Assembly: GCA_025517465.1 (NCBI GenBank)
Contig: JAOPKE010000001.1
Span: forward strand, 372,001 to 436,000
Reading direction: 5' to 3'
Length of the DNA: 64,000 bases
DNA from: Halobacteria archaeon HArc-gm2
GTDB taxonomy: Archaea > Halobacteriota > Halobacteria > Halobacteriales > Haloarculaceae
Shown here one piece after another: positions 40,065 through 61,650 of this stretch. A program made the translations under genes and the position numbers. The notes under the pieces were generated by a model that was not told the DNA's origin, did not search any database, and saw nothing but the letters and a program-made list of their open reading frames with translations. The first letter of the stretch is position 1. Each line of letters opens with the position of its first letter.

Positions 40065-40219
40065 CGGTTCGGTTGCTCGTGAATGGTCGTTTCGCGCGAA
40101 TAAGGGTATCGCTCCTCTGGAAGGTGTTCTCAGACTCGGTTCGAACTGTTCAGTCGAGGGTGTGTACTGAGCGAGTGGTTCCGTGATTTTCGCTGGAAGA
40201 AACGAGACTGCCATCAACC

Positions 40220-40737
40220 AGAAAGCCCTCGGCAGGCTGGGGTCGCGGGGACCGCCCTGCGCTCCTCGCTCACTCCGTTCGCTCCGGTGCCCTCAGCGAA
40301 AGCTGAGGACTATGCGAGAGCTTCGCTCTCGCGGTCGCTTGGGAGTCCCGGCTTCCCCCAGCCTGCCTCGCCCTTTCAGTCCTCCAGGACCACACGGCAG
40401 CCCTGCCCTTCCCCGGGTTCTCGCGGTTACACCGCGAGGTACGGGGGACCTTCGGTCCCCCGGCACGCTCGGGCGCGGCAGTGGCCACGCCCCTCGCTCC
40501 CGGCCGGGCGGTTGCGGTCAGGAAGCGGGATTCGGCGCGTCCGCGCCGAATCCGGGGAGGAGTGGTGGTCTAATCGCGAGCCCGGGCCGAACGGAGTGAG
40601 GCCGGGAGAGCAATGCGGGACCTGGTGGACTGAAAGGGCGAGGCGGGGTGGCGACGGAGTGCAGTCGCTCAGCGGGCGCTACCCGAACGCAGTGAGGGTA
40701 TCCCGCTGAGCGACCGCGAGCCCGCCGAGGGCTTTCT
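40220..40737. repeat. Structured repeat element, copy A (518 bp, nested palindromes)
   Basis: Bounded by a 14-bp perfect inverted repeat (agaaagccctcggc, 40220-40233, with complement at 40724-40737). Inside is an 18-bp perfect inverted repeat (gcctcgccctttcagtcc, 40365-40382 with 40627-40644) and a central 12-bp stem with 2-nt loop (40528-40553; ggattcggcgcg tc cgcgccgaatcc, stated here in arms). Smaller hairpins lie between (for example gagagcttcgctctc around 40316-40330, and gggggaccttcggtcccc around 40443-40460). Its ORFs are Arg/Pro/Gly-rich and not credible as genes. A second, inverted copy lies at 61100-61472. Confidence 0.85.
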
Positions 40738-40835
40738 ACCTCTTGCTACCTTCAGTCACGTCGGCAATTCGAACTCATCCAATCGCTCAGTCCTTCCCCT
40801 ACACTGACCGACTCATTCAGCCACGACGTCTCAGA
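40738..40835. other. Gene-free spacer between repeat A and the cupin remnant
   Basis: No gene seen. It shares tcttgct just outside the repeat boundary with copy B (61476-61482), so the repeat may extend slightly beyond its inverted ends. Confidence 0.5.
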
Positions 40836-41110
40836 TCACTCCGCGTCCCAGTAAGGGACCTCGGCGTCGGTTCCCAGCACGTCCGTCCCGTCGCTGTCGA
40901 GCACGAACCTCACCTCCTCGTTGCCCCCGTGATAGTGCCGGAGCCAGGCCTGCTTTCAACCTGTACTCCGTGGAGGCTGCGGCAGAGTTCCTCGGCCGTG
41001 GTGGCGGCGGCGAGTTGCGTCCGGTGGAACTCATGGTCGCCGTGGTCGTGTTCAGTCCAGTCGAGGTTGCCCTCGTCGACGATCAGGTCCGTCTCGTCCG
41101 ACAGTGCCGG
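40836..41110 (-). pseudogene. Broken cupin gene, paralogue of the intact cupin at 43302-43796
   Basis: Reading from the right, the first part matches the intact cupin: SDETDLIVDEGNLDW, then HDHGDHEFHRTQLAAATTAEELCRSL. A frameshift near 40955-40960 moves the match to AWLRHYHGGNEEVRFVL in another frame. Then the core beta-barrel (about 80 residues in the intact copy) is missing, and the sequence jumps to GTDAEVPYWDAE, equal to the intact C-terminus DAEVPYWDEA. The start codon position reads CTG instead of ATG. Evidence for decay is therefore threefold. It lies right beside structured repeat A. Confidence 0.85.
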
Positions 41111-41212
41111 AGCGAGTCCTCGACGGGGGAATACGTTCGCCACTCACCGTAAGGTCGAATCAATCCGAAGTGACTGGGAAACAAACTTGTACGCTCCTGC
41201 ATACAGCCCGGC

Positions 41213-41218
41213 AAGGAG
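41213..41218 (+). promoter_or_regulatory. Shine-Dalgarno site for the MscS-linked ATPase-like gene
   Basis: aaggag, 9 nt before the GTG at 41228. It decides the GTG as start, since no ATG is near. Confidence 0.6.
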
Positions 41219-41227
41219 TCACCGAAC

Positions 41228-42244
41228 GTGGACGTCACACCGGAGCAACTCCGCGACACTGGCTTCGCGGTCCAGTTCGACGCCGTCGCCGAGACCGTTT
41301 CAGTCGCCGACTGGGACCGCGGGCCGAACCTCGCGGTCGTCTCGGACCCGTACGCTGGCCGGGACCTGCTGGTCGACCACGCCGTGACCCGACTCGATGA
41401 CCCGACCCGCGTCGCCCTCGAGGGCGTGGCCAGCGGGGAAGAGCTACCCGAGCTTGCGAGCCGGGACGCCGGCGACGCCGTCGTCGTCGAGAACTGTCAC
41501 TACCTGTTCTCGCGGGAGGTCGGCGGTTTCGGCTGCCTGGAAGGGTTCCTCGAAGCGATCGCACTCTCGGCACCGACGGTCGTCACGTCGTGGAACGCGG
41601 CCGCGTGGTCGTACCTGGACGCGGTCAGGGACGTCTCGCAGTCGTTCGACAGCGTGGTCCACCTCCCGCCAATCGACGCCGTCGACCTCGCGAGACTCGT
41701 CGAGGCCCACCACGACGGCTCGCTTCCCGAGTTCGTCCAGACGTCTGCCGACGGCCGGGTCAAGACCGTCTCGTTCGACCGCGCGACGGTGTCCCCGCTG
41801 GGCGGTCGGGAGGTGACGGTGCCGATGCCGAACCTCAACACGGAGTACCTCCTGTCCCGTGACGCGACGGAGACCGTGGGCGACGTCGAGGCGGTCGTGT
41901 TCCAGAAACTGGTCCAGGTCGCGGGCGGGAATCCCGGCGTCGCGACGGCCTGCTGGGACGAGAGCGTCCGCGACGGTCAGGTAGCTCCGGGATTCGTCGC
42001 GGAGTACGATCCGCAGTTCTCGCTGGACGACGACGCGGCCTTCGTCCTCGAACTGGTCGTGTCGAACGACCGGATCCGACGCCAGACCCTCGACCAGATC
42101 CGACCGACCGTCCAGGTCGACAAGGCGCTCCAGACGCTCGCCGAGTCGGGACTCGTTGCCGTCGACGGCGAGTGGGCGCGCGTGGCACCCACTCACTGGC
42201 GGGCGGCGAAGGAGCACCTCGAAGGGAGGCAGTTACTGTGGTGA
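41228..42244 (+). CDS. ATPase-like protein lacking a clear P-loop, coupled to MscS
   Basis: 338 residues, GTG start. I recognise no named family. The order of elements resembles a STAND/ORC-type AAA+ domain: LAVVSDPYAGRDLLVDHAVTRL where a Walker A would be, but without GK[ST]; AVVVENCHYLFSREVGG in the Walker B place (Asp-Asp/Glu replaced by Glu-Asn); APTVVTSWN as sensor 1; and a C-terminal winged helix (VQVDKALQTLAESGLVAVDGEW). It therefore may have lost ATPase activity. Its last codons overlap the mscS start (ctgtggtga), so the two are translationally coupled and probably interact. Confidence 0.65.
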   Translation: MDVTPEQLRDTGFAVQFDAVAETVSVADWDRGPNLAVVSDPYAGRDLLVDHAVTRLDDPTRVALEGVASGEELPELASRDAGDAVVVENCHYLFSREVGGFGCLEGFLEAIALSAPTVVTSWNAAAWSYLDAVRDVSQSFDSVVHLPPIDAVDLARLVEAHHDGSLPEFVQTSADGRVKTVSFDRATVSPLGGREVTVPMPNLNTEYLLSRDATETVGDVEAVVFQKLVQVAGGNPGVATACWDESVRDGQVAPGFVAEYDPQFSLDDDAAFVLELVVSNDRIRRQTLDQIRPTVQVDKALQTLAESGLVAVDGEWARVAPTHWRAAKEHLEGRQLLW

Positions 42245-60949: not shown

Positions 60950-61099
60950 CGAACCTAGGATTGCGATGGTTCGGTTTGGGTTTAGCGATTCCGTCTGATC
61001 GTTTTGAACTTGGACGAGTGCTTTCTGGTCAGTACAGTGTGTAGACGTATCGTTTGGTGTGGTTCGAACTGGTGACGTAACTGAAGACGACAATACCTC
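60950..61099. other. Gene-free spacer upstream of mutY
   Basis: No gene seen. It holds A/T-rich runs that can serve as the mutY promoter and the decamer ggttcgaact (61061-61070), which also occurs at 40138-40147 between elp3 and repeat A. Confidence 0.5.
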
Positions 61100-61472
61100 G
61101 AAAGCCCTCGGCCCGCTCGACTCGCGCGGGCCCGCTGCGCGCCGTCGGTGCTTGCGGGTCCGTGCTTCGCCGACCGCGCCTCGCCCTTTCATTCCTCCAG
61201 GCTCAGCATCGCTCGCGCGATAAAACGCGCTCGCGATTGAGTCCGCCAATCCTCCCCGGATTCGGCGCGTCCGCGCCGAATCACGCTTCCTGACCGCTCG
61301 GCAACCGCCCGGCCGGGAGGCCGTCTCGTCGGCCGACCAGGGGGAGGGTAGGGCTGCGGTACCTGGGGGACTGAAAGGGCGAGGCGGGCTCCAGGAACCC
61401 CGGCCCCGTAAGCACCGGAACGCAGTGAGAAGCGCAGCGGGGCCGCGGGACCGGAGCCCGCCGAGGGCTTTC
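61100..61472. repeat. Structured repeat element, copy B (373 bp, inverted relative to copy A)
   Basis: Bounded by gaaagccctcggc (61100-61112) and its complement (61460-61472). Inside are a 14-bp inverted repeat (gcctcgccctttca, 61178-61191 with 61372-61385) and the same central palindrome (61259-61282). The core at 61231-61320, reverse-complemented, matches copy A at 40497-40585 with few differences, including ggccgggcggttgc and ggtcaggaagcg. Copy B lacks about 145 bp of arm sequence found in A. No gene is present. Confidence 0.85.
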
Positions 61473-61650
61473 TGGGTCTTGCTGTCGGCATTGGTTTCAC
61501 TGGCACAACCGAGAATCACCCGTTCAACTCACAGATAGAGTGAGTGCGGAAAACGAAAGGCCACTTGAGCTACGACAAATCGACGAACGCACCGACCATC
61601 AGACAACCGTAGTCGAAACTCGTTTCCGCGCTCTCGCAAACACCACGGGT

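Follow-up and report, generated by a model that had tools for sequence, protein, structure and literature searches.

Background

In REP/BIME repeats a hairpin unit occurs singly, in inverted pairs and with tandem end repeats, in intergenic DNA and without genes. Foldback elements, known from eukaryotes, have long inverted ends with tandemly repeated parts. REPs themselves are 20–40 bp long and carry GTAG or CGTC tags (PMC3733652). Among haloarchaea, Haloquadratum walsbyi contains the repeats SMR-A and SMR-B of ~80-110 bp, whose within-type identity commonly exceeds 95 %; in this one haloarchaeon catalogued, transposase-free mobile repeats outnumber transposons, and the mobilisation of SMRs was called enigmatic (PMC3119063). 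In the literature searched, the nearest described elements to the repeat analysed here are the Haloquadratum SMRs and PATEs (PMC3119063). That paper was the sole relevant one found on repeat families, and the motif strings returned only unrelated primer-like matches. No description of the repeat was found in the open-access literature; most subscription journals lie outside it, and an earlier description is possible.

The repeat was noticed as two copies in a 64,000-nucleotide stretch of the genome of Halobacteria archaeon HArc-gm2 (the window). It resembles the SMRs in being haloarchaeal and non-coding, in having inverted ends without known transposon kin, no target duplication, many copies and strain-specific insertions, and in its likewise enigmatic mobilisation (PMC3119063). 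It is set apart from SMRs by description, being ~530-720 bp long, highly divergent and composed of paired hairpin units; inverted ends, lack of duplication and lack of genes are common to both, but the homogeneous copies of ~80-110 bp are not. SMRs lie inside other mobile elements, whereas the repeat lies in ordinary intergenic DNA. With PATEs it has in common palindromes near the termini, divergent ends that bear a conserved terminal oligonucleotide, and the lack of a target duplication and of a transposase (PMC3119063), but PATEs are without inverted ends and have palindromes common to IS605-type elements, a link which for the repeat amounts to an octamer at the hairpin foot. The organisation as single unit, inverted pair and tandem ends is that of REP/BIME; in contrast to REPs, the units measure ~105 bp, belong to two internally looped hairpin classes and have no RAYT linked to them.

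Two inverted copies in the window

The preliminary description had reported a repeat present in two inverted copies, upstream of elp3 (copy A) and of mutY (copy B), and its inverted ends, internal repeat, central palindrome and core were all recovered. The end motif T (GAAAGCCCTCGGC) matches exactly at 40221, 40724(-), 61100 and 61460(-); with up to one mismatch it is found 4 times in the window against 0.09 expected, and the internal motif I also has 4 matches, against 0.06 expected. The palindrome ATTCGGCGCGTCCGCGCCGAAT is exact in both copies. As had been claimed, the core of copy A equals the reverse complement of that of copy B with few changes (87 % identity over 89 aligned columns), the alignment score of 118 comparing with a maximum of 29 among 300 random 90-mers. 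The match between the two copies is far above chance expectation.

The limits originally given to the copies, 40220-40737 and 61100-61472, proved too narrow, as homology with other copies continues ~60-77 bp outside T on both sides (oriented flanks). New limits were set using two end models, R1 for class 1 ends and R2 for class 2 ends (Table 1). Those of copy A carry an uncertainty of ~5 bp; the end of copy B was placed near 61554 because its R2 match spans model positions 10-95. The left hemi-unit of copy A consists of a class I body and an extra two-hairpin module of ~55 bp (see arm lengths below), while class alignment assigned a class II body (CTACCCG...GGGTATC) to its right hemi-unit and a class I body (AAGCACCG...GCGCAGCG) to the second hemi-unit of copy B.

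Table 1 Features of the two repeat copies, in window coordinates
Feature	Position	Strand	Evidence
Copy A, whole element with outer inverted ends	~40143-40813	+	R2 40143-40233 (+) 66 bits; R1 40724-40813 (-) 58.5 bits
Copy A left outer end, class 2 flank (...TGTGTACTGAGCGAGTGG...)	40143-40220	+	Alignment of 23 left ends; oriented flanks
Copy A left hemi-unit hairpin, I-to-T on minus strand	40221-40378	-	T 40221-40233, I 40366-40378
Copy A core between hemi-units	40379-40630	+	T/I positions; core similarity
Copy A central palindrome ATTCGGCGCGTCCGCGCCGAAT	40530-40551	.	Exact match; inverted-repeat detection
Copy A right hemi-unit hairpin, I-to-T on plus strand	40631-40736	+	I at 40631, T at 40724
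Copy A right outer end, class 1, terminus ...CTACACTGACC	40737-40813	+	R1 match; right-end alignment
Copy B, whole element with outer inverted ends	~61022-61554	-	R1 61022-61112 (+) 59.1 bits; R2 61460-61545 (-) 68.1 bits
Copy B outer end, class 1 (CAGTACAGTGTGTAGACG...)	61022-61099	-	R1 match; right-end alignment
Copy B hemi-unit hairpin, I-to-T on minus strand	61100-61191	-	T 61100-61112, I 61179-61191
Copy B core, reverse complement of copy A core	61192-61371	-	87 % identity, 89 columns
Copy B central palindrome	61260-61281	.	Exact match
Copy B second hemi-unit hairpin, I-to-T on plus strand	61372-61472	+	I 61372-61384, T 61460-61472
Copy B outer end, class 2	61473-61554	-	R2 match; left-end alignment

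No credible ORF or gene lies inside the copies, in agreement with the preliminary description. The spacing of ~150 bp to the gene start, to which it had drawn attention, was measured correctly (157 bp for elp3 and 151 bp for mutY), and the decamer GGTTCGAACT does occur in both gaps, but neither is a feature of the family. The 55 dimers parsed from the source genome lie among convergent, divergent and tandem genes, so no such spacing is general. The decamer is not placed equivalently in the two gaps (73 and 29 bp from T) and has one further occurrence in the window. Regulation of elp3 and mutY by the repeat was rejected, since the fixed distance and the shared decamer both failed.

Organisation of the family

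A complete copy runs in the order class 2 outer end - T - arm - I - core - I' - arm - T' - class 1 outer end, and constitutes an inverted dimer of a hemi-unit (CCTGGYGGACTGAAAGGGCGAGGC, variable hairpin, GCCGAGGGCTTTC) enclosed by degenerate outer inverted ends of ~77 bp (YGNTCRGTACAG...). The usual form in the source genus has the two hemi-units facing apart around a palindromic core, within the ~530-720 bp given above. The hemi-unit of ~105 nt is composed of CCTGGYGGAC-TGAAAGGGCGAGGC, a hairpin body of class I or II and GCCGAGGGCTTTC, and is flanked by a half-core on one side and by an outer end on the other. According to the end alignments and end models for the source genome, the left end is of class 2 and the right end of class 1; as the two outer ends are unlike each other, the element is directional, and this direction agrees with the orientation of the core.

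In each arm a hairpin is closed by GAAAG/CTTTC; a 5 x 5 internal loop and GGC/GCC come next. The loops of the two arms have sequences complementary to each other, and therefore the arms can also pair T/T' and I/I'. Arm lengths are bimodal (80-109 and 130-159), and those longer arms that were examined contain a module of two consecutive hairpins. Some ends carry additional tandem T copies at steps of 51-57 bp, and one such step (~50-60 bp) is the difference between apparent orthologues. These steps recall foldback elements as an architectural analogy only, the size and sequence being different.

The module of two consecutive near-perfect hairpins was seen at L183 (1580-1700 and 2260-2350), L090:7694 and L158:462, an example being CGAGAGAGC-GAAG-CTCTCTCG with CGAAAGGCGC...GCGCCTTTCG. 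It is present in the arm loops of several copies and also, at two other loci, apart from T/I motifs, and by analogy with SMR-A in Haloquadratum it may be a smaller, palindrome-targeting mobile repeat. Another insertion was observed in the I region of one copy (L173, source-genome contig C1:278700-282500, at ~1655-1855): a separate element of ~0.2 kb with inverted ends CTGTAGGATCGC...GCGATCCTACAG and with TTTCAGTC on both sides, which would seem to be a MITE nested within the family copy and flanked by an 8-bp target duplication.

In Halosimplex, Halonotius and Halorussus the hemi-unit is mostly single, as it is in the majority of the named genomes. A second I motif within 650 bp was found in 8 of 42 cases in Halosimplex and 1 of 13 in Halonotius, which is no excess over the 21 % expected by chance, and the single units of these two genera have the layout CCTGGYGGACTGAAAGGGCGAGGC - hairpin - GCCGAGGGCTTTC. 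Two loci of Natronomonas gomsonensis, recent paralogues, have 278 bp in common at 97 % identity, stretching from CGGCCGGGAG to GTTCCCACGC, beyond which they are unrelated on both sides; judged by this alignment, one hemi-element extends over the 278-bp match. The left end of this hemi-element is equivalent to the midpoint of the dimer core, and the dimer therefore resembles two hemi-elements joined at the core.

Abundance and distribution

Two copies of the repeat had been noticed at first. The source genome (4.25 Mb) yielded 139 BLAST pieces of it; identity in matches from copy to copy was mostly 67-88 %. The T motif, 13 bases long, was found 238 times (109 + 129) with up to one mismatch, in comparison to 8 times (3 + 5) for the reversed control. 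Judged from tandem and paired matches, the genome holds an estimated hundred or so loci. From 70 of its loci, 55 complete inverted dimers were parsed.

A search of other haloarchaeal genomes, proposed earlier as a check, did find further copies. The repeat was matched in 30 of 59 genomes (the source genome and 58 relatives), and many copies are present in G006, a member of the same genus, and in G029, from another genus of the same family. Among the matches listed, the exact 17-base I motif occurs in Halosimplex, Halorussus, Halonotius, Haloparvum, Natronomonas, Natronolimnohabitans, Haladaptatus, Halapricum, Haloarcula and Salinarchaeum. Five plasmid records showed a partial match, and no match to the repeat came from phage records or from 2.9 million viral contigs. 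In Rfam there were 0 matches above the gathering score and nothing convincing at a permissive threshold.

Family copies were also observed at contig ends of the source genome (C1:41-53, C3:43-55, C6:154-166, C13:1-89 and C16:43-133), and the repeats are thus probably where the assembly breaks. Such contig-end copies, with the motif matches of C1 and C3 lying in the first 60 bases, are relevant to genome assembly and annotation.

Hairpin classes and strand preference

Two hairpin classes recur across genera, class I (AAGCAC...GCGCAGC) and class II (CTATC...GGATAT). Examination of the aligned copies for covariation, another check proposed at the outset, revealed compensatory changes in both: RNAalifold predicted 30 and 33 pairs, and at least one pair-keeping double change was found in 19/30 and 16/33 of them, respectively.

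Strand preference was determined in aligned units, counting only pairs predicted on both strands. There were 57 G.U cells versus 16 A.C cells, or 23 versus 9 with each combination of pair and type counted once (p about 0.02); the result was clear for class I, and for class II alone it was weak and not significant. In 199 of 214 units the I-to-T strand gave the more stable RNA fold, the margin being about 6 kcal/mol, whereas in the control with pieces of the window the plus strand was more stable in 87 of 158. Unpaired positions on the I-to-T strand are 76-86 % purine. The difference in stability survives a pair-side flip control and therefore comes mainly from purine-rich loops and not from the pairs; a few conserved loop sequences carry it.

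The aligned test replaces two previous counts. A whole-dimer G.U/A.C symmetry test (77:76), which first suggested structure at the DNA level only, was rejected because the arms are inverted copies and a strand-specific unit gives equality by construction. An unaligned per-arm recount in the source genome, with A.C exceeding G.U, owed its result to a single conserved internal-loop position that occurred 18 times. The LSU rRNA control was discarded, as it was probably read in antisense (minus-strand match on the contig, few unpaired purines).

The compensatory changes together with the one-strand fold make a folded single strand, either RNA or ssDNA, the probable form in which the unit is recognised. 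The argument from sequence that one polarity is recognised is moderate, not conclusive, and does not separate RNA from ssDNA.

Presence and absence among related genomes

The sites occupied in the source genome (G000) were compared with those in its congeners G001-G006, of which G006 is the closest. G000 and G006 have the copy upstream of mutY, and it is missing in G001-G005, where the same genes lie ~590-615 bp closer; as judged by this comparison of sites, the mutY-side copy is an insertion of ~600 bp. When 20 further sites were compared with G006 by flank query, L003, L012, L175 and L186 were without a copy, L015 had outer ends only, L190 a core-less remnant and L177 was rearranged, the others being occupied or probably occupied. 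In G004 the copy is missing at several sites too. At L012 two convergent genes have the copy between their stop codons and are ~12 bp apart in G006.

The missing length usually amounts to T-to-T plus ~110-240 bp, so the outer ends moved too, and T-to-T as the whole mobile unit was rejected as the default on the same grounds. L015 in G006 provides the single base-exact junction, intergenic DNA diverging too fast elsewhere. This junction looks like a T-to-T loss between short GTC repeats rather than an insertion, and hence some absences may be losses. The pattern among congeners indicates that the element is mobile, or was so recently. The proposal that the repeat is a non-autonomous mobile element is supported by its many copies, by presence and absence among congeners, by its inverted ends and by its gene-free interior.

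At the elp3 site of G006 (L210) the copy is present next to a different upstream gene: the gene upstream of the elp3-side copy (window 40143-41250) is cupin-like in G000 and enolase/racemase-like in G006, which places a rearrangement breakpoint at or near the element. In Halorussus litoreus (L089:1640-1880) a single hemi-unit was observed upstream of the mutY neighbour gene, as in the source genome; given the five empty congeners of the latter, it represents an independent insertion or repeated loss.

Origin of the repeat

Inverted outer ends on both sides, a gene-free interior and presence/absence among congeners are also the features of an ordinary MITE, i.e. a deletion derivative of a DDE-type IS, whose transposase would act via the terminal inverted repeats and for which the hairpins would be incidental. 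However, with the R1/R2 end models no transposase turned up within or next to paired ends of the source genome, nor any IS with these ends there. Paired R1/R2 matches span ~270-810 bp there, and the unpaired ones, considered as parts of an autonomous element, were found in or near host genes and not transposases. Thus, the transposase-bearing relative that was to make the repeat an ordinary mobile remnant according to the preliminary description is absent among paired ends in the source genome. Target duplication was found in none of 17 copies with two anchored ends, and shared flanking k-mers were no commoner than in shuffled pairs, although many IS families likewise generate no duplication. 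Single hemi-units are the rule in several other genera, and a MITE is not expected to keep compensatory hairpin changes across families. An origin of this kind seems unlikely.

The repeat could instead be a structured RNA or UTR element (a stability element or terminator) spread by duplication and retained for its RNA function. The strand-specific fold and the compensatory changes in two hairpin classes would agree with this, and the structured RNA proposed in the preliminary description was supported for the hemi-unit at the level of sequence only. The copies are intergenic. Among single units, those with both neighbours co-directional mildly outnumber those with both opposite (30 versus 13). 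In contrast, the 55 dimers of the source genome, classified with gene calls from a simple codon model, are distributed without gene-context bias (15 convergent, 12 divergent, 25 tandem and 3 unassigned), both strands of an inverted dimer carry a sense unit as well as an antisense one, and sites are gained or lost between close relatives. Retention for an RNA function is in our opinion likewise unlikely. The suggested chromosome-organising sequence had no support, as no pattern of orientation or gene context was found among the copies.

The source genome encodes one Y1 transposase (TnpA, C12:183850-184197) and eight TnpB-like loci. An IS605 origin was rejected on the basis of the absence of T/I motifs beside the eight TnpB loci and the TnpA locus, save for scattered matches with 1-2 mismatches; no Y1 gene flanked by the repeat was found, only scattered 2-mismatch T/I matches occurring around the single Y1 gene. 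Upstream of the sole TnpA/TnpB element of IS605 type (L266:1350-1380, contig C12 of the source genome), the left hairpin starts with GAAAGCCC, like T. The octamer is common to the T motif and the IS605-type element at the hairpin foot only; the Y1-side hairpins are otherwise different, and the likeness is therefore a lead only. That the repeat is a PATE, an internally deleted IS605-type element on which a Y1 transposase would act via near-terminal palindromes, is highly improbable: the palindromes, heterogeneous termini, conserved terminal oligonucleotide and lack of target duplication are as in Haloquadratum PATEs (PMC3119063), and the hairpin foot upstream of the one Y1 transposase gene is T-like, but the repeat has inverted ends, absent in PATEs, and the IS605-element hairpins of this genome are short and otherwise unlike its arms.

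Conclusions

The repeat probably represents a family of non-autonomous, transposase-free mobile repeats, similar to BIMEs and SMRs, with the hemi-unit as the building block and moved in trans. The features observed are the copy number, the anatomy, the presence and absence at related sites, the conserved pairing with compensatory changes and the fold favoured on the I-to-T strand. An enzyme encoded elsewhere would recognise the folded single-stranded hemi-unit (ssDNA or RNA), and the copies would enter intergenic DNA without target duplication. Such movement may be likened to that of REP/BIME, thought to be mobilised by Y1 transposases; the genome's one Y1 transposase would be a candidate only, with no direct link to the repeat. 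Against movement in trans stands the fact that neither an autonomous copy nor a mobilising enzyme was found in the source genome.

A more specific version is possible, albeit on the unlikely side: the hemi-unit may be a structured RNA, or a folded ssDNA copy of it, that serves its own spread as substrate or guide. Present singly or in inverted dimers in several haloarchaeal families, it would be moved in trans by a still unrecognised enzyme. If true, the family would be an RNA- or ssDNA-hairpin-based mobile repeat.

For the family as a whole, a defined hairpin of ~105 nt in two classes, the copy-rich Halosimplex pelagicum and Halorussus halobius, and congeners with empty sites provide the material for tests. 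An abundant, many-genus family with a strand-specific fold makes the mobilisation of such repeats testable.
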